A DNA stretch of 23,327 nucleotides from a virus. The notes under the pieces are model-generated. The model was not told the DNA's origin. It did no database searches and saw nothing but the letters and a program-made list of their open reading frames with translations. Positions 1,572 through 8,875 of the stretch are shown here, in pieces. A program made the position numbers and the translations under genes. The stretch is from the IMG/VR virus record IMGVR_UViG_3300017776_000196, positions 1 to 23,327 of that record; one strand, written 5' to 3'. Position 1 is the stretch's first letter; each line of letters opens with the position of its first letter.

Positions 1572-1735
1572 TAGTATTTAATATTCTTTTCTTTTAAAAA
1601 TTCACTAACCCATTTAGCAATATATTTGGCTGTTCCATTGGTGGGACCAAGCACCCAATTATTTCCTGCAGTGAATTGTCTGGCGTGACTTTTAAAGTAT
1701 TCTTCCAGTTCCTCTATAAATTGTTCATCACTCAT
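1571..1735 (-). CDS. small hypothetical protein (54 residues)
   Basis: A 54-codon frame starts at ATG 1735, overlapping the stop of the upstream SGNH-like gene as ATGA, and ends in TAA at 1571-1573, overlapping the gp47 start as TAATG. It fills exactly the interval between the two genes, which is strong positional evidence that it is translated. The protein begins MSDEQFIEELEEYFKSHARQ and continues through an NNWVLGPTNGTAKY stretch to a Lys-rich, probably helical C-terminus. No membrane segment, signal peptide or known motif is visible. I do not recognise the family. Confidence 0.7.
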   Translation of the reverse strand: MSDEQFIEELEEYFKSHARQFTAGNNWVLGPTNGTAKYIAKWVSEFLKEKNIKY

Positions 1736-2418
1736 ATTTTATAGGTCTCCTTTAACCAAGGTAGGATAACTTGTTTTGTAAATTCTTTATGTTGTGCATC
1801 ATCTGGGTGACAGAGCCAATTTTGATCTTCAGTATTCACAATTTCATTCTCATATTTTGAAAAAGGTAGATCACAATTATTCTTACACCAATCAAATTCA
1901 CCTTCTACGGGAAGCCAATTTTTTCTACTGGCTTGTAATAATTTATACTCCTCATTATCAGACTCTTCTAAAATTAATTCACTACATTGTGACGCCATAC
2001 GAGTCATAAAATATTTTATGCCTTTGTTCTGTAGATATTGTTCAATTAGAAACTGCCAATATGTGGACATCAAAGCTGAATTCGTCAAATTATGTAAGTG
2101 AGTATAATAGGCAGTGGACAACTTATCCGTCCAGTGAGCATTCATAATTTTCCATTCATTCTGATATACTTCATGTCTATCAGTGCCTGACCACATTACA
2201 CCTACTAAAATATCTTTGGCTGTATATTCTTGAAGTAATTTTTCAACACCTAAAATAATAGTTCGAGCAATATATTGATTTCCTACAGAAGATTTACCAT
2301 AATTAACTAAAGGTATTTGTAATATCTCAGACAAAGGCAAAGGCCAACATCTAGTATGACCTTCTTCCGTTTCTGTAAAACTACACCCTGAGGTAAGCAA
2401 TACCTTTACTTCACTCAT
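1732..2418 (-). CDS. SGNH-hydrolase-like protein, paralog 2
   Basis: A complete 228-residue protein with SGNH/GDSL-like layout. Block I is TSGCSFTE with Ser13 as candidate nucleophile; the Gly block is NYGKSSVGNQY (residues 39-49); a third conserved stretch is ILVGVMWSGTDRHE (70-83). Near the C-terminus, HPDDAQH (204-210) fits the Asp-x-x-His catalytic pair (Asp207, His210). No signal peptide is seen, so it probably acts in the infected cell's cytoplasm or in the virion. It is a paralog of the partial gene at the left edge, with the 54-residue gene and gp47 in between. It overlaps queD upstream by ATGA (2415-2418). Members of this fold hydrolyse esters, acyl or acetyl groups; the true substrate is unknown. 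Confidence 0.72.
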   Translation of the reverse strand: MSEVKVLLTSGCSFTETEEGHTRCWPLPLSEILQIPLVNYGKSSVGNQYIARTIILGVEKLLQEYTAKDILVGVMWSGTDRHEVYQNEWKIMNAHWTDKLSTAYYTHLHNLTNSALMSTYWQFLIEQYLQNKGIKYFMTRMASQCSELILEESDNEEYKLLQASRKNWLPVEGEFDWCKNNCDLPFSKYENEIVNTEDQNWLCHPDDAQHKEFTKQVILPWLKETYKI

Positions 2419-2876
2419 ACTTCTAGAATTTCCATTTCATAAATGCCTGAGTTTGCGCCATGCTCTCGACACTCAGCAGATACACAACGACATCTACCAT
2501 CAGTCATTTTGTTAATTAAATTATCTGCAAAATAAAAAGCGTGTTCAGCAAACTTTTCACAACCGACACCATTCATAATACGAACATCCGCAAGACCTTT
2601 GTCTTGCAACTCCATAAGTTCTTTAATCTTTGGATCGTCTTTATCAATCGCAAGTGTGTGGTCAAATTGTTTTTCCAACCATTCCTTTAGTTGTTTCAGA
2701 CCGCCAAAGTCTACAACCCAGTTCTTATCATCAAGAGTTCGGGCGGCAAACTTAAAACTAAATGCAAGTGAATATCCATGAATCAAACTACAGTGAGAAT
2801 GTGTAGCCAATGGCTGTCTAAATGCACATGAAAGTCCACGATCATGCCCATATGTTTTAGTGCTGTAATACATCAA
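2415..2876 (-). CDS. queD: QueD-like 6-carboxy-5,6,7,8-tetrahydropterin synthase
   Basis: This 153-residue protein belongs to the 6-pyruvoyl-tetrahydropterin synthase/QueD family. QueD converts dihydroneopterin triphosphate, the FolE product, to 6-carboxytetrahydropterin. Visible features are Cys17 in GLSCAFRQP, the His-rich metal region THSHCSLIHGYS (25-36), the strand/helix VVDFGGLKQLKEWL (54-67), FDHTL (71-75), GVGCEKFAE (103-111) and the C-terminal SAECREHGANSGIYE. The usual HGH zinc motif reads HGY; as I recall, alphaproteobacterial and marine phage QueD share this THSHC...HGY form, so I do not regard it as a defect. Its start overlaps the glycosyltransferase stop by 20 bp. Start choice between the two tandem Met codons is uncertain. 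FolE and QueE in the same operon support the pathway assignment. Confidence 0.9.
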   Translation of the reverse strand: MMYYSTKTYGHDRGLSCAFRQPLATHSHCSLIHGYSLAFSFKFAARTLDDKNWVVDFGGLKQLKEWLEKQFDHTLAIDKDDPKIKELMELQDKGLADVRIMNGVGCEKFAEHAFYFADNLINKMTDGRCRCVSAECREHGANSGIYEMEILEV

Positions 2877-3903
2877 TCAATCCTTTAGCCGAGAAGTATT
2901 CCTTTTCAAGAAACTCTCTGTTATTATGTATAGTCGAAGTCATATGATTTGTGTGAAAATCATCCATTAAATGACGAATACGGTTAATTAATTCATCCTT
3001 ATATTTTGTGTAACCATTCATGTTTCGTGTCCATTTACTGTCATACTTAAATTCATCGTGATACATTTCTTTGTATGACAATCTATCTGGAACCATCGGA
3101 ATAGCACCTGCACACAATGCCTCATAACATCCTATGCCTAGTGTCTCCTGTAAGTTTGCTGAAAATACCATTTTAGATTCACCCAACAACTTATGATAAT
3201 CTTGTTTTTTCAGATCCATTTGCTGGCAAAAAATAAATTCATATTCGGGAAGTTCATGTGCCAAGTCTTCAAAAATATCTGGTTGTTTCTCAGGCGCAAT
3301 TCTGTGTGGGAACAAAATTTTATTTTGTTTCTTTGTGCCTATTGTGTCACGCTCAATCTCATGTTTAAGATACTCCATAGGCCAACCTGTTCTGAATGAC
3401 TTTGATTTAGAACCAAATGCTTTCTTAAACATTTCCACATGAAAGTCTGACGCAAACCAATTGTAATCAAAACAATGATAAAAACTTCTTTCAGCATTAC
3501 GAACCCAATCAGCATCACCAATTAGTCTACCTAAGAAGTCTTGTGGGTCATAACTACCGGCATGCCACATGCCATGTGTAATAACCTTTACGCCCAATAG
3601 TTCTGACATATATTTAAGATTGATAATACCTGGATGCCAAGCATCTGCAAAAACAAAGTGGTCACCCTCTTTTATCTTATTGTCAGTAAACAATTCAGCA
3701 ATCTTTTTTACTTGTTCTGCTTTGTAAATGTTTGTGCCTGAGAAGTTTAGAAATGCACCTGGTGTTGTGCAAGCCGCAATGTCTGCTGGACCTTCAATAA
3801 TAGTAACATCGAGATTGTTATCACTTAACAGTGCAGGAAATTCTGTTTTCCATTGTGCTGTATAACGTGTTTCCACATATTCTAAATCAATCAAATAAAT
3901 CAT
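2857..3903 (-). CDS. GT-B glycosyltransferase (GT4-like)
   Basis: A 348-residue protein with the C-terminal donor domain of group 1/GT4 glycosyltransferases. The strand KILFPHRIAPEKQPDIFEDL (195-214) has the Arg...Lys pair that contacts sugar-nucleotide phosphates in this fold. SANLQETLGIGCYEALCAG (248-266) carries the characteristic E-x7-E motif (Glu253, Glu261). The N-terminal half is more divergent, as expected for an acceptor domain. No membrane segment is visible. It lies between two QueD-fold genes and downstream of dpdA, with overlaps of 17-20 bp on both sides, so it is co-expressed with the deazaguanine genes. Glycosylation of phage DNA is an established phage strategy (T4 alpha- and beta-glucosyltransferases), so modification of DNA or of the deazaguanine base is a reasonable inference. 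A protein or envelope glycan acceptor is not excluded. Confidence 0.85.
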   Translation of the reverse strand: MIYLIDLEYVETRYTAQWKTEFPALLSDNNLDVTIIEGPADIAACTTPGAFLNFSGTNIYKAEQVKKIAELFTDNKIKEGDHFVFADAWHPGIINLKYMSELLGVKVITHGMWHAGSYDPQDFLGRLIGDADWVRNAERSFYHCFDYNWFASDFHVEMFKKAFGSKSKSFRTGWPMEYLKHEIERDTIGTKKQNKILFPHRIAPEKQPDIFEDLAHELPEYEFIFCQQMDLKKQDYHKLLGESKMVFSANLQETLGIGCYEALCAGAIPMVPDRLSYKEMYHDEFKYDSKWTRNMNGYTKYKDELINRIRHLMDDFHTNHMTSTIHNNREFLEKEYFSAKGLIDVLQH

Positions 3904-4243
3904 TTTTTACAATACCACCATTTTCATCATCTTCATAAACTTCAACTTGAACACCCCTGTCAGGATATTCCTTTTCAATATAGTCCATAAGATCTTCACA
4001 AATCATTTCACAAGATTTATAATCTAGTTGTAATGTTTTTTCATCATAAAGACTTTCGAGTTCACGTTTAAATAAAATAAACTCCACATCTCTATCATCA
4101 TGGAATACGCCTAGTGTAACATAAAAATGAAAAATGTGTCTATGTGGATATTGTAAAAACTCTACACCAGGCAAATCTTTTGCGCCAGGATATTTGTGTA
4201 TGCCTTCCTTCTGAAAGGAAACTTTAATATAAGACTTTCTCAT
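3887..4243 (-). CDS. divergent PTPS/QueD-like (T-fold) small protein
   Basis: I do not recognise a named family for this 118-residue protein, but its layout resembles a shortened QueD/PTPS fold. A Pro-His-Arg-His motif followed by a beta strand (YPHRHIFHFYVTLGV, 32-46) matches the HGHSY-strand zinc region. VEFILFKRELESLYDE (53-68) matches the VVDFxxLK helix. SCEMICEDLMDYI (77-89) matches the SAENxAxxI helix, and VQVEVYED (98-105) matches the C-terminal VxVxE strand. These are alignments by eye. The start overlaps the dpdA stop as ATGA (4240-4243) and the stop overlaps the glycosyltransferase start by 17 bp. It could be a second pterin-binding enzyme, a DpdA partner or an inactive paralog. Confidence 0.6.
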   Translation of the reverse strand: MRKSYIKVSFQKEGIHKYPGAKDLPGVEFLQYPHRHIFHFYVTLGVFHDDRDVEFILFKRELESLYDEKTLQLDYKSCEMICEDLMDYIEKEYPDRGVQVEVYEDDENGGIVKNDLFD

Positions 4244-5505
4244 GCAAACAATCCTTCAAGTGATGGTGGTTCGGAACTTCTTACAGCCGCCGATTTCATA
4301 CTACCTCCAAGATACTGGTCATCCTGCCAGCGCATAAAATCCTCAACTGTCTTTACACTATACAAGTTTCTGTATTGATGTTCAAGTTTCATCTTGCCCG
4401 TAAAGCGCAAAATTTCTTCTTCACTGTGTAGCATTTGTTCTACACGGGACATAAAATTACGAATGCTTGACAAAACAAATGTATATCTAACTCTCAGCCA
4501 TTCATCAAATGTGCCGCCTTCATCTTTCCATGCTTGCGAACCCATATTCAAAACTTTATAAAAGTCTTCAAGTGTTGAGCCGATATCAACAGTTTTTGAA
4601 ATATCCTCATAAAAAATTCTATATCTATCATCAAAGTTTCTGTCATATTTTATTGTTGCCTCATTCATAAAATATAAGCCTGTTTCAGCCGCACGACTAT
4701 GTGTTGTGCTATCATATGAGATTTCAATGTGGTCATACAACCCATTCTGACAAAAGATAAGATAAGGCAAAAGTCTGCGAACAGAACCAACACCTAGAAT
4801 ATGCAAATGTAATTTGTTTTGTTTGTTGCGCCAAGGAATCTGACTAGCAATAAAGGCACGTTTTACATCTTCAAGTGGACCAGTGCCTAGTGCCGCGGCT
4901 CCCATTGCAACCCCACCAATGCGTTCGCGGTCAGTCACAGGAACCTCAGAATACAATCTGTCAGCCCAGGTCATATAAGTGTCATAACAGTTTCCTTGCA
5001 AAATTGCAAATGGCGCACACTTGCTATCATGGTCCTCAAAAATTTCTAATTGTCGTTTTACATTTTGACCAGTCTTCTTAGCCATTTCTTCATAGTTATC
5101 AATATCAAAAATCCTTGCACCTACATCATTCCTATCAGATTTTCCTGATGTAAGTTTTACAGGAATCTCGTCAAAACACATACCGACATCAGCAGACTTT
5201 GCCTGATTCTCATAAATCTTTTCTTTCAGTTCTTCAGTAATTGTTTTACCGAGAGTAACAATTTGCAAGCCTCCAGAGTCAGCATGAATATTCTTGATAC
5301 TACCTGCGTAAGGTTGGAATCGTTTACCAAAACTAGATTCCTGATAGGCATTGTAAAGTGCAGAAAATGTATGACTCTTATGTCCATGAACCATTTTTCC
5401 AAACAAGTCACGAACCATTTCCACACGCTCAGGAACTTGAGATACTTGAGGGTTACTCATTCTCATATAGCTTGTGCCTGAAACTACATATTCTAGGCTG
5501 TGCAT
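4240..5505 (-). CDS. dpdA: DpdA-like DNA-guanine transglycosylase (TGT family)
   Basis: A 421-residue protein of the tRNA-guanine transglycosylase fold. TGT landmarks are in order: HADSGGLQ (74-81) with the first catalytic Asp76, CFDEIP (110-115), AILQGN (167-172, equivalent to VQGG), GGVAMGAAALG (197-207, equivalent to GGLAVG), HILGVGSVRRL (235-245), and SYDSTTHSR (263-271) with Asp265 at the position of the nucleophile motif FDCxxPTR. The CxCxxC...H zinc site of bacterial tRNA enzymes is not visible. Phage TGT relatives encoded with FolE/QueD/QueE are DpdA enzymes that exchange guanine in DNA for a 7-deazaguanine base. The gene overlaps the upstream 181-residue gene by 13 bp and the next gene by ATGA. 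Activity on tRNA rather than DNA is the main alternative and is less likely in this setting. Confidence 0.85.
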   Translation of the reverse strand: MHSLEYVVSGTSYMRMSNPQVSQVPERVEMVRDLFGKMVHGHKSHTFSALYNAYQESSFGKRFQPYAGSIKNIHADSGGLQIVTLGKTITEELKEKIYENQAKSADVGMCFDEIPVKLTSGKSDRNDVGARIFDIDNYEEMAKKTGQNVKRQLEIFEDHDSKCAPFAILQGNCYDTYMTWADRLYSEVPVTDRERIGGVAMGAAALGTGPLEDVKRAFIASQIPWRNKQNKLHLHILGVGSVRRLLPYLIFCQNGLYDHIEISYDSTTHSRAAETGLYFMNEATIKYDRNFDDRYRIFYEDISKTVDIGSTLEDFYKVLNMGSQAWKDEGGTFDEWLRVRYTFVLSSIRNFMSRVEQMLHSEEEILRFTGKMKLEHQYRNLYSVKTVEDFMRWQDDQYLGGSMKSAAVRSSEPPSLEGLFA

Positions 5506-6038
5506 TGCATAAACTCCGGAATAGGCCTGTCAGTCCAACGTGCAATTGGACGCTTGTATTTTTTGTAATAGTCCTGATATGCAACAATGGAATCTTCAGT
5601 CTTTACATCATCAGGCATAGCTTGTGCCATTTTTGTCAACGGACCGTCGGGCAAATTCTTAGGAAGTTTTGCAAGAATATGAAAAAGTTTTTCATCGGTG
5701 AGATGGCGTCTACGATAACGATGTGTGTATTCAAGACACAATTCACACCATAGTCGATATAACCAAACATAGTTTTCCTTAGATGCCCGAGTCCAAATAC
5801 CTGAAGGATGATTAATATGTGAGGCTTTGTAAATTAGTTTCTCGTCCTCAGCATTGTTTAAACGCCAACGTTTAATGTTCCGACCATTAGCAGTTTTGTC
5901 CATATACATTTCACCATCAAGAACACGATGTGCTGTAGACATCAATTGTGCATACTCAATAATCATCTTGACCACATGTTTGTCACAATGTAATTGAGCG
6001 CATACTTTAGGATCTTCATCCAAGTAAAAAATGTTCAT
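5493..6038 (-). CDS. conserved hypothetical phage protein (181 residues)
   Basis: I do not recognise a function. The N-terminus (MNIFYLDEDPKVCAQLHCDK, then HVVKM) and the downstream STAHRVLDGE stretch look like a conserved block that I recall from other phage genomes without a named activity. The cluster Asp-x-Asp-Pro, Cys-Asp-Lys-His and STAHR contains plausible metal- or nucleic-acid-binding residues. A Trp/Tyr-rich middle (HPSGIWTRASKENYVWLYRLW) and a Lys/Arg-rich C-terminus ending RWTDRPIPEFMQ suggest a soluble nucleic-acid-associated protein; this is inference. No membrane segment is seen. It overlaps dpdA by 13 bp downstream and the 74-residue gene by ATGA upstream, so it is co-translated with the DNA-modification genes. 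Confidence 0.8.
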   Translation of the reverse strand: MNIFYLDEDPKVCAQLHCDKHVVKMIIEYAQLMSTAHRVLDGEMYMDKTANGRNIKRWRLNNAEDEKLIYKASHINHPSGIWTRASKENYVWLYRLWCELCLEYTHRYRRRHLTDEKLFHILAKLPKNLPDGPLTKMAQAMPDDVKTEDSIVAYQDYYKKYKRPIARWTDRPIPEFMQCTA

Positions 6039-6259
6039 AGTCCAAGGCTCCGTTTAATTTCATCCTGTGCATCACGTTTACCCAAGTCGTAAACCTCACT
6101 AAACAAATTATATAGATCTGTGCCATTTAAGTCAAGCACATTTATTGATTCTGGTTTGCCTCGCATATCCTTAGTTTCAATAATCAAGCCATCAATAGCA
6201 GGGATAGGGCGAATTTGTGTAAAATTTTTGATAGTTTTTGTAAATGGATATGACATCAT
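6035..6259 (-). CDS. small hypothetical protein (74 residues)
   Basis: A 74-residue soluble protein with two starting Met codons (MMSYPFTKTIKNF). It has a strand-rich first half, an INVLDLNGTDLYNLFSEVY segment and a charged helical C-terminus (DLGKRDAQDEIKRSLGL). No recognised domain. Both ends overlap neighbours by ATGA (6035-6038 and 6256-6259), which supports it as a real translated gene between the exonuclease and the 181-residue protein. Confidence 0.65.
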   Translation of the reverse strand: MMSYPFTKTIKNFTQIRPIPAIDGLIIETKDMRGKPESINVLDLNGTDLYNLFSEVYDLGKRDAQDEIKRSLGL

Positions 6260-6792
6260 GTCCTCAAAATTTTCAATAATGTTTTAGTTTGGCTCATTGC
6301 ATCATCAAGTGCATTATGATGTGTGCCGTCACTTTCTGACTTTCTTATTTGATTATTGTTTACACCTACAAGATTCAAAACTGTTCTATAACATTGAACT
6401 TTCCAAGGCGACCAAGGAATAGTAAGTTCAGTGTTCCAGTATGCTGATTCTAATATGGAGATATCGAAGGCGGCACCATTGCCCCAGATAATTGTTTGTC
6501 GGTCATTGCCAAACCATTCGGCAAAATTTTCCAACGCTTGGGTGACAGGTAATGGATTGACCGTCAAGGCCTTCCTAGCCTCCTTGCTTTGTTGACTCCA
6601 CCACTCTACTGTATCTTTCGAGATATGAAGCCCGGCATCCTTGCAAGAATTGGCGTCTACATTTGTGTAGAAAGTGTCAAGCACTCCTTGTTCAATGTTA
6701 AAAGCTACGGCACCAATTGAGAGGATAGTGGCATATGGACGCACACTTAAGGTTTCAAGGTCAACCATTACCTGTCTAGTTGTATTATTCAT
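6256..6792 (-). CDS. DnaQ-like 3'-5' exonuclease (Rv2179c/DexA-type)
   Basis: A 178-residue DEDD-family exonuclease. ExoI motif: VMVDLETLS with Asp11 and Glu13, followed by ILSIGAVAF. ExoII: IIWGNGAAFDISILESAY with Asp110. ExoIII: HHNALDDA with His159 and Asp164, giving the DEDDh type. The WWSQQS stretch (65-70) after the first domain strand is typical of the Rv2179c-like (DUF5051) phage and bacterial exonucleases; T4 DexA is a related functional precedent. It would degrade 3' ends of DNA or RNA in the infected cell. It begins 6 bp downstream of folE and overlaps the next gene by ATGA. Placement among DNA-modification genes could mean it removes unmodified (host) DNA, but that is inference. 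Confidence 0.85.
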   Translation of the reverse strand: MNNTTRQVMVDLETLSVRPYATILSIGAVAFNIEQGVLDTFYTNVDANSCKDAGLHISKDTVEWWSQQSKEARKALTVNPLPVTQALENFAEWFGNDRQTIIWGNGAAFDISILESAYWNTELTIPWSPWKVQCYRTVLNLVGVNNNQIRKSESDGTHHNALDDAMSQTKTLLKILRT

Positions 6793-6798
6793 ATAGTC

Positions 6799-7470
6799 CT
6801 ACTTATTCACAAAACTCATAAACTCATTACGAAGAGACTGGTCATCTTTGAAACCGCCTCCTAATTTACTCGTAACAGTAGATGAACCTACATCTTCAAC
6901 ACCTCGACTTTTTACGCAATAGTGTTGAGCATCAACGACAACAGCAATATTATCTGTATCGAGAATGTATTGTAGAGCATAATAAATTTGTTCAGTAAGG
7001 CGTTCCTGAATCTGAGGACGTTTAGCAAAATATTCTACAACACGATTAATTTTACTAAGTCCGAGAACTTTTTCGTTTGGAATATATGCAACAGTAGCCA
7101 CACCATCAATTACAACAAAGTGATGTTCACAGTTAGATTGAACATTAATGTTACGCTCTATAACCATTTCATCATAATTCATTTTGTTATCTACTGTAGT
7201 GCATTTAGGAAATGCCTCATAATCAAGACCCCAAAAGATTTCATTTACATACATCTTCGCAACACGTTTAGGAGTTTCAGTAAGACTATCATCCATAAGA
7301 TCTAGTCCTAATGTTGCCATAACGTCTGTGAAAAGTTTTTCAATAGTATCAATTTTATCTGTTCGACTGATACCATTATCTTTAACGGGTGTTTCCACGC
7401 CACACTTTACTAAGTGTTCATGGACTTGGCGACCCAACTCAGGGTCTGTCTTTGTTTTATTGTAAGCCAT
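6799..7470 (-). CDS. folE: GTP cyclohydrolase I
   Basis: A 223-residue FolE of the E. coli type, which converts GTP to dihydroneopterin triphosphate, the first step for both folate and 7-deazaguanine. Zinc ligands Cys114 and His117 lie in SNCEHHFVVIDG, and Cys185 in QHYCVKSRG. The substrate region VAYIPNEKVLGLSKINRVVEYFAKRPQ (several identical blocks shared with the bacterial enzyme, shown here only by its start VAYIPNEKVLG) is intact, as is SKLGGGFK near the C-terminus. An N-terminal extension of about 35 residues precedes the conserved core. A strong Shine-Dalgarno sequence (GGAAGGAG) precedes ATG 7470 in a 39-bp gap, unusual in this otherwise overlapping operon and possibly marking higher translation. 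With QueD and QueE it supplies the base used by DpdA. Confidence 0.96.
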   Translation of the reverse strand: MAYNKTKTDPELGRQVHEHLVKCGVETPVKDNGISRTDKIDTIEKLFTDVMATLGLDLMDDSLTETPKRVAKMYVNEIFWGLDYEAFPKCTTVDNKMNYDEMVIERNINVQSNCEHHFVVIDGVATVAYIPNEKVLGLSKINRVVEYFAKRPQIQERLTEQIYYALQYILDTDNIAVVVDAQHYCVKSRGVEDVGSSTVTSKLGGGFKDDQSLRNEFMSFVNK

Positions 7471-7509
7471 TTATTACTCCTTCCTTACACGAGCTATGAC
7501 TGTTTATAT

Positions 7510-7998
7510 TTATTCCCACGGGAAAATTACCCATCGACTATCATTGTAATATTCTTTTACCGCATAGTCAACTAGTTTTGTATCTATTTTGGTTGTAAGA
7601 ACTGCAACGTCTGTATTAGGATGATTTGCTTTTACTTGTGTTAGTGTTAACCCAGAGTCACAAATATCATCTACAATTAAAACTTTTTGTTCTCTGTTTA
7701 TGATATTATTTAGACGTCCATTCTCTTGAAGTCCCCCATCGCGTGTCTGCCATACGACCGAATCGTATTTTATTCCTAGTTTATGGCTAATCATAACAGC
7801 AGGAGTCACGCCCCCGCGAGCAAGTCCTATAACCATTGTGTAACCTTTGTCTTTAATTTGTTTACACAAGTCATCTACAATATTGTCAATATCTCGCCAT
7901 GACAGAATGATATTTTCAGGATCTTTGTATGTCACTGTATAATCTCCTACCTCAGCAAATGATGCGGTTGCATTGTCAATTTTCATATGATAAAACAT
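7510..7998 (-). CDS. phosphoribosyltransferase (type I PRTase, Gpt-like)
   Basis: A 162-residue type I phosphoribosyltransferase. The PRPP-binding loop is VLIVDDICDSGLT (106-118), with the two acidic residues and the DSGxT turn in place. VIGLARGGVTPAVMISHKLG (56-75) is the second conserved element, as in xanthine/guanine phosphoribosyltransferases. The product would be a purine nucleotide made from a free base and PRPP. It sits between queE, whose TAA stop ends two bases before its ATG, and folE. Possible roles are salvage of guanine released by DpdA back to GMP, which would feed FolE, or conversion of a deazaguanine base to a nucleotide. Both are inference. Met5 is an alternative start. Confidence 0.88.
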   Translation of the reverse strand: MFYHMKIDNATASFAEVGDYTVTYKDPENIILSWRDIDNIVDDLCKQIKDKGYTMVIGLARGGVTPAVMISHKLGIKYDSVVWQTRDGGLQENGRLNNIINREQKVLIVDDICDSGLTLTQVKANHPNTDVAVLTTKIDTKLVDYAVKEYYNDSRWVIFPWE

Positions 7999-7999
7999 T

Positions 8000-8875
8000 T
8001 TATGTCCCTATTTGATTACCAAACACATAGGCATGGTTTCGTGTTGCCACAAAGTATCCTCGGTCCATTGCATCTACAGCAATGTCAGAAATAACTTCTT
8101 GTTGTTCTTTAGTTGCACCGACAGGCATAACCCAAACCTCAGGCAAATCTGTTTCTCCAAATACTTCTGTAAGTTCTTGCATGTTGTTTTCTATTTCATT
8201 CCAAGATTCATCAGTTCCATTACAAACAAATTTAAGAATACTTGTTGATGAAGCTACAATATCTGAGTATTGTAAAATTGTTTCAGGTTTCCAAGCATCT
8301 TTTTCACCGGCAGTATGTAACAGTTTAGGACTAATAGCAAAGTGCCAACGAATGTCATCATTGTTTTCAATAAACTCTTTAAATAAAGGCAATAGAGGTT
8401 TTGTGCCGTTTGTTTCAATAGTAATTGTTTTTGGACGATTGTTTCTCGAAGTAAGTTCTTCAACAATAGCAACCATATGTTTTTGTCTTAACATAGGTTC
8501 GCCGCCTGTAAAACACAACATTGTATCTGTCTTATAACCATCACGAACAAACTTGCCACCTGGCAAATGTGCCTCAAATTTATCGCACACTTGTTCTATT
8601 GTCTCAGATGGACAAAGATGTTTAAACTTAAATGACCATGAATATGAGGAGTCACAGCCTTTATCAAACACAGGAAGTTCCTCAACATTTGAAATACTAT
8701 CAGGATCTACATCCTTGTATGGAAGTTCCCATGTATTTTCATCGGCGGGATTTGTTTGACCAAAGCCATTACATTCAAGATTACAACCAAAGAAACGTAA
8801 CCACACAGAAGGTTTACCTGCGAGTTCGGCTTCACCTTGGAAGCTAAAGAATATTTCGGAATATTTTACATTCAT
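8000..8875 (-). CDS. queE: QueE-like 7-carboxy-7-deazaguanine synthase (radical SAM)
   Basis: A 291-residue radical SAM protein of the QueE family, which rearranges 6-carboxytetrahydropterin to 7-carboxy-7-deazaguanine. The N-terminal YSEIFFSFQGEAELAGKPSV and WLRFFGCNLEC match QueE, and CFTGGEPMLRQ (about 121-131) is the GGEP SAM-binding motif; TIETNGT follows. The cluster loop is unusual. Cys31 and Cys35 keep the first CxxxC, but the next Cys is Cys74 in KGCDSSYSW, about 38 residues on, instead of two residues later. I recall a similar GCDSS form in other marine phages, so this may be a phage QueE subclass. The protein is longer than most bacterial QueE (about 210-250). It is the first gene after a sigma70-like promoter; no clear Shine-Dalgarno precedes its ATG. 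Confidence 0.9.
   Translation of the reverse strand: MNVKYSEIFFSFQGEAELAGKPSVWLRFFGCNLECNGFGQTNPADENTWELPYKDVDPDSISNVEELPVFDKGCDSSYSWSFKFKHLCPSETIEQVCDKFEAHLPGGKFVRDGYKTDTMLCFTGGEPMLRQKHMVAIVEELTSRNNRPKTITIETNGTKPLLPLFKEFIENNDDIRWHFAISPKLLHTAGEKDAWKPETILQYSDIVASSTSILKFVCNGTDESWNEIENNMQELTEVFGETDLPEVWVMPVGATKEQQEVISDIAVDAMDRGYFVATRNHAYVFGNQIGT

Follow-up and report, generated by a model that had tools for sequence, protein, structure and literature searches.

A glycosyltransferase gene (GT) lodged in the deazaguanine cluster of a T4-like phage probably encodes an enzyme that puts a sugar on 7-deazaguanine in phage DNA after the base has been inserted by DpdA2. It is nearly certain that this gene belongs to the deazaguanine system. 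The GT occurs in hundreds of phage sequences and in a small number of bacterial islands, and these viruses probably contain a sugar-coated guanine analogue. Phage DNA is already known to contain deazaguanine bases and glycosylated pyrimidines. An earlier note on this DNA had proposed a sugar-decorated deazaguanine, a reading that was supported by the linkage to dpdA and by cellular relatives acting on the 7-deazaguanine of tRNA; the sugar in DNA is what we infer.

Organization of the locus

The window, that is, the whole stretch of DNA that was analyzed, is a 23.3-kb fragment of a T4-like phage taken from a virus record. On its minus strand the gene order is folE, a dexA-like gene, a 74-aa open reading frame (ORF), phrog_624, dpdA2, the small QueD-fold gene, GT, queD, and a 228-aa ORF (Table 1), and the reading frames overlap at each junction from the dexA-like gene through the 228-aa ORF. 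As the earlier note had described, the GT was found between two QueD-fold genes and overlapping both, by 17 nt with the small QueD-fold gene and by 20 nt with queD. FolE, QueE, and a phosphoribosyltransferase are encoded 3 to 5 kb upstream of the GT, and the phosphoribosyltransferase was present at 68 related loci among the matches listed. No tRNA was found by a tRNA scan of the window, and promoter and terminator scans of the window gave results barely over the shuffled expectation.

Table 1. Features of the window that surround the GT gene
Positions	Strand	Feature	Basis or remark
1732-2418	-	228-aa ORF	
2415-2876	-	QueD, 6-carboxytetrahydropterin synthase family, C-x3-HGY variant	PTPS 1.7e-13; QueD-like phrog_2389 1.5e-39
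2857-3903	-	GT4 glycosyltransferase, GT-B fold, QTMAN-related, 348 aa; proposed deazaguanine glycosyltransferase	ORF (ATG start, unbroken), motifs, model, profile
3887-4243	-	Small QueD-fold protein, 118 aa, phrog_17812; candidate deazaguanine-processing enzyme	Model, Foldseek
4240-5505	-	DpdA2-type DNA-guanine transglycosylase, 421 aa	Motifs, match to nt-1 DpdA2
5493-6038	-	phrog_624 protein, weak similarity to pyrimidine dimer glycosylase	13-nt overlap with dpdA2
6256-6792	-	dexA-like gene	
6799-7470	-	FolE, GTP cyclohydrolase I	Pfam 1.4e-61
7510-7998	-	Purine-type phosphoribosyltransferase	Pribosyltran 8e-13
8000-8875	-	QueE, 7-carboxy-7-deazaguanine synthase	phrog_2076, QueE-like, 1.8e-48; NCBIfam QueE models 1e-11, under cut-off

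Several gene products of the cluster showed peculiarities of their own. The radical-SAM cysteine motif of QueE is apparently split, with C-x3-C, about 40 additional residues, and then the third cysteine (CDSSYSW). QueD has C-x3-HGY and not C-x3-HGH, which makes the third canonical zinc ligand a tyrosine; this tyrosine was seen in the window and its marine relatives, in 50 of the 50 copies that matched the motif, and the Magnetospirillum copies have HGH. The phrog_624 protein was seen again beside dpdA in many marine loci.

The GT product is a predicted retaining GT4 enzyme

From its sequence and model, the GT product is predicted to be an intact retaining GT-B/GT4 glycosyltransferase. The AlphaFold model has the GT-B fold (pLDDT 92.6), and its best PDB fold matches were BshA, glycogen synthase, MshA, PimB', and PglA, which are retaining GT4-type enzymes. 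Residues H114, R201-x4-K206, and E253-x7-E261 were invariant across 59 diverse sequences, and the corresponding patterns (E-x7-E, R-x4-K, and the acceptor-side histidine) were retained in 129 of 130; the GT thus combines the GT-B fold with the two motifs, E-x7-E and R-x4-K, by which GT4 enzymes of the CAZy type are recognized. The dN/dS ratio of the gene was 0.07. The match of the window GT to Pfam Glycos_transf_1 (E = 5e-4) fell under the Pfam cut-off, and 19 of 22 relatives matched the same model (best, 8e-12). Apart from this weak match, the window GT could be placed in no family of Pfam, PHROGs, NCBIfam, or PADLOC, and a PDB sequence search returned marginal matches only. T4 alpha- and beta-glucosyltransferases appeared neither in the PDB sequence matches nor in the top 50 by fold, so that the likeness to T4 DNA glucosyltransferases that the earlier note had looked to did not emerge, and the protein was found instead to be of the GT4 type and related to QTMAN.

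Relationship to QTMAN

QTMAN (GTDC1) is defined by the mannosylation of queuosine in tRNA-Asp. A profile of the phage GT, run against 249 Pseudomonadota genomes at E <= 1e-6, matched only the family's own member and the genomes in which the QTMAN_N domain (PF12038) scores over its cut-off, all 20 of 20; the remaining proteins in these 249 genomes reached 1e-5 at best. At lax thresholds, the best GT-profile match in 11 QTMAN genomes lay in the QTMAN reading frame. By hhalign, the GT family aligned with QTMAN (97.9%, E = 6e-13) in just the donor half (about residues 145 to 330), where both have HR..EK/DK, E-x7-E, and RLxYxE signatures, so that the similarity is specific to the QTMAN donor domain. 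QTMAN is likewise of the GT4 type, and its known substrate is also a 7-deazaguanine in nucleic acid; in tRNA, it attaches alpha-mannose to queuosine at the cyclopentene hydroxyl (PMC12518689).

In contrast, the N-terminal acceptor half of the window GT is unrelated in sequence and gave no alignment with QTMAN, which counts against the preferred reading, and none of 22 GT members matched QTMAN_N at E <= 1. The GT family also differs in that it accompanies DpdA in phages, which are without queuosine-specific genes. Because the similarity is confined to the donor half, the family is best regarded as a relative of QTMAN with an acceptor half of its own and not as a QTMAN. Among 385 genomes of the class Alphaproteobacteria, the GT was found in one, namely, the genome used as the center, and the class is therefore not a general reservoir.

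Linkage of the GT to deazaguanine genes

A first scan yielded 39 viral contigs (IMG/VR) with GT relatives, nearly all of which had the arrangement DpdA, small gene, GT, with QueD added in marine phages; a wider GT set had the same partner genes. A profile scan gave at least 594 GT relatives (the best 80 of these were retained), as well as 16 contigs labeled bacteria or archaea; several GT contigs with such labels probably represent phage contamination of metagenome-assembled genomes. The Pfam TGT model misses DpdA2 in 14 records, which makes its silence uninformative, and a purpose-built DpdA profile was used. The linkage proved near obligate. In an HMM census of loci with a near-full-length GT (n = 129, among the matches listed; neighborhood of 8 kb), DpdA was found near the GT at 116 loci, the small QueD-fold gene at 121, and at least one deazaguanine gene at 127. 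The two exceptions were a short contig (L034) and Xanthomonas phage PhiXhv (L045), in which a Gat-QueC fusion is encoded two genes from the GT and a DpdA-like gene is found at a distant genomic site. When GT sequences were clustered at 70% identity, DpdA lay no more than 6 kb away in 21 of the 24 usable clusters, among the matches listed; a clipped contig, Phosso, and PhiXhv made up the remainder.

Reciprocally, every locus of the window-like DpdA2 clade (49 to 100% identity) with enough downstream sequence carried the GT (57 of 57), a count that overstates independence since these are related phages. All five GT-bearing isolate lineages (Phosso, ACP17, the PA5oct group, X1, and PhiXhv-12) had a DpdA homologue in the genome, with a weaker match in PhiXhv (8e-16). 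The two DpdA types were found in 70 and 13 of 50,697 phage records, and we consider five of five lineages against these base rates to be the fairest co-occurrence figure. The opposite pattern named in the earlier note, with homologues mostly without dpdA and beside envelope- or virion-glycan genes, was not what was observed; nearly all homologues lie in dpdA/queE/folE neighborhoods, whether they come from marine or freshwater phages, from isolated jumbo phages, or from bacterial islands. With the gene order kept where GT identity drops to about 50 to 60% and with the low dN/dS ratio, the arrangement is not a matter of chance. The unit dpdA, small protein, GT, queD was upheld for DpdA and the small protein, which are fixed, but not for queD, which does not always adjoin the GT. 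Lineages in which canonical queD does not adjoin the GT still have the small QueD-fold protein, which is the fixed GT partner besides DpdA.

DpdA2, the small QueD-fold protein, and the modified base

The window DpdA was 36% identical over 63% (E = 7e-45) to YP_008125322 of phage nt-1, the protein that defines DpdA2 (PMC6884629). It has a DSGGLQ motif, containing the TGT signature DSGG, and invariant Asp112 and Asp265, so that both nt-1 homology and TGT active-site motifs were found; the match to tgt_general (E = 9e-6) was under the cut-off. A family of 175-aa proteins (L063:6831-7358) with no Pfam or PHROG match was seen at 65 loci directly upstream of the small gene.

QueD has zinc-binding histidine ligands and a catalytic cysteine four residues ahead of the HxH zinc motif. 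The "small T-fold protein" of the earlier note was indeed QueD-fold: its model (pLDDT 94.9) had E. coli QueD as the best PDB match by Foldseek (E = 6e-6, TM 0.74). A PDB sequence search with the protein gave nothing meaningful. The zinc-type histidine triad (H16/H34/H36) is retained, and a conserved leucine, Leu30, occupies the position of the QueD catalytic cysteine, which was not found. Relatives occur in Cellulophaga phage phiST and other deazaguanine phages. DpdL has reportedly been proposed as a 7-carboxy-7-deazaguanine (CDG) decarboxylase for phages such as phiST; since phiST encodes a homologue of this small protein, we take the latter to be possibly DpdL.

QueC was not found in the complete genomes of ACP17, PAC2, and Phosso. 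PhiXhv has Gat-QueC, three long marine contigs encode a QueC-like PP-loop protein, and two freshwater contigs gave partial matches; given this patchy distribution, the base may vary among phages, or host enzymes may help. The PP-loop protein of the marine contigs (L048, L049, and L050) has a C-terminal cysteine cluster, and in L048 and L050 its gene lies between ribonucleotide reductase-like genes. A search of 14 records found no QueF, the enzyme that would yield the amine preQ1, and of the bases that can clearly be made (CDG, preQ0, and 7-deazaguanine) none offers an ordinary hydroxyl acceptor; both points count against the preferred reading. In a tentative and rather unlikely solution, the small protein would be a CDG decarboxylase whose product, 7-deazaguanine, offers a bare, nucleophilic C7 as the acceptor; after insertion by DpdA2 the GT would form a C-C bond, giving a C-glycosylated 7-deazaguanine (or, alternatively, a CDG glycosyl ester might be formed). 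Any assignment of the sugar and of its attachment atom is provisional.

Bacterial islands and related clusters

In Azospirillum, Pelagibacterium, Thalassobius, and Pseudooctadecabacter, the GT adjoins a queuosine precursor transporter-like gene and a long DpdA, and a tyrosine recombinase lies near the GT in three of these four islands. The transporter-like gene of L138 matched Vut_1 (1e-5) and TIGR00697 (2e-5), both under curated cut-offs. Magnetospirillum carries GT, small gene, DpdA, and QueD, in that order. The bacterial copies look like a mobile DNA-marking island that possibly imports a deazaguanine precursor. Loci L129, L136, L137, and L138 carry the transporter-like gene, the GT, and the long DpdA, with a large protein of an unclassified family beside DpdA in three of the four; they had no PADLOC matches and are possible deazaguanine-based self-marking systems.

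A second putative GT was found near most bacterial copies. Such proteins with a DxD-like motif and no Pfam match (L132:11954-12820, L136:3344-4282, and L053:637-1533) were seen beside bacterial copies and, in one case, in a contig of phage origin. In Synechococcus phage BUCT-ZZ01 (L166), in which the window-type GT was not found, two GT4-type genes (3373-4716 and 6364-7530) flank DpdA and the small gene. Because several different GTs occupy the same slot, these arrangements argue for glycosylation as the common function. Enzymes of the sugar-nucleotide type were also encoded repeatedly in GT-positive clusters, which favors glycosylation. Among the matches listed, UDP-Glc/GDP-Man dehydrogenase family genes lie near the GT at 31 loci and Gfo/Idh/MocA genes at 21, and an epimerase-domain gene lies near the PA5oct-type GT. 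In PhiXhv-12, a divergent GT relative lies by a PIG-L GlcNAc deacetylase and the Gat-QueC fusion, a cluster that could make a glucosaminyl deazaguanine.

Proposed pathway and alternatives

In the pathway that we favor, FolE, QueD, and QueE would convert GTP to CDG, and the small QueD-fold protein (with QueC-like or Gat-QueC proteins in some relatives) would alter the 7-substituent. DpdA2 would then swap guanine in replicated DNA for the altered deazaguanine, onto which the GT4 enzyme, drawing on a nucleotide sugar, would transfer the sugar moiety with its configuration retained (expected product, alpha), much as QTMAN acts on tRNA queuosine and T4 glucosyltransferases act on hydroxymethylcytosine in DNA. 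The acidic pI of the GT (5.7), with no obvious DNA-binding charge, counts against this pathway. Acidity would suit a GT that works ahead of insertion, on the free base or on a nucleotide, with the glycosylated deazaguanine as the DpdA substrate, as would the overlaps with two genes for small-molecule enzymes, queD and the small QueD-fold gene, and the recurrent phosphoribosyltransferase. However, QTMAN, the closest relative, works on queuosine already in tRNA (PMC12518689), and a hexose-bearing base would have to fit the DpdA pocket; we consider this order of events unlikely. With QTMAN as the closest cellular family, the GT could also be a viral QTMAN that acts on queuosine in host or phage tRNA, retunes translation, and is merely co-located with the DNA pathway. 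This seems highly improbable, since the linked partner, DpdA2, is a DNA modification subfamily (nt-1 DNA contains dG+ and dPreQ0), a survey found queuosine-specific enzymes to be absent from viruses (PMC6884629), and QTMAN_N was unmatched by any GT member.

The low score of the window GT against Glycos_transf_1 would suit a GT4 fold that has been catalytically altered to bind modified bases and transfers no sugar, but the retention of all three catalytic patterns in 129 of 130 sequences leaves little room for such a loss. GT4 enzymes often build glycans, and a GT decorating a virion protein or the host surface might have hitchhiked in the cluster; this is the least probable of the explanations, given the overlapping reading frames, the reciprocal linkage at 57 of 57 loci, and deazaguanine genes at 127 of 129 loci among the matches listed, in unrelated phages and bacterial islands. 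Glycosylation of 7-deazaguanine in DNA after DpdA2 insertion is the reading that we retain.

Comparison with known systems

The DpdA2-type systems of Vibrio phages nt-1 and KVP40 share the DpdA2 family and FolE/QueD/QueE with the window, whereas no match to the window GT was found in those phages; nt-1 DNA contains dG+, dPreQ0, and dADG, with no sugar reported (PMC6884629). Clusters of the phiST type have the small QueD-fold homologue within a queD-queE-folE cluster, but this GT family was not found there, and MazG-like and kinase-like genes are in its place. BshA of bacillithiol synthesis (GT4 enzyme BshA and PIG-L deacetylase BshB) is the best fold match of the GT, and the PhiXhv GT relative likewise adjoins a PIG-L deacetylase; BshA differs in its acceptor and context and is only 10 to 13% identical to the GT. 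T4 glucosyltransferases glycosylate hydroxymethylcytosine in DNA. These and other hydroxymethylcytosine and hydroxymethyluracil enzymes resemble the GT in the GT-B fold and in its proposed role of placing a sugar on a modified phage DNA base, and they differ in the acceptor base, which is inserted by base exchange in the window system and via a modified dNTP in T4-type systems.

Significance

A literature search found no report of glycosylated deazaguanine in DNA and nothing linking a GT to DpdA, although earlier predictions of either are possible. The available part of a jumbo phage survey (PMC7824862) describes deazaguanine and Mom-like systems in PA5oct and does not mention base glycosylation. 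The GT family is present in isolated, culturable phages, including PA5oct and Paride. PA5oct has been studied for therapy, and Paride kills dormant cells. If the proposed pathway is correct, a sugar placed in the major groove at guanine would widen the protection from restriction, and perhaps also from CRISPR nucleases. C-glycosylated 7-deazaguanine, if formed, would add a new class to the known DNA hypermodifications and serve as a self-mark in phages and some bacterial islands. An orphan GT family would also be linked to QTMAN, which would suggest that glycosylation of deazaguanine in nucleic acids has arisen in more than one setting.
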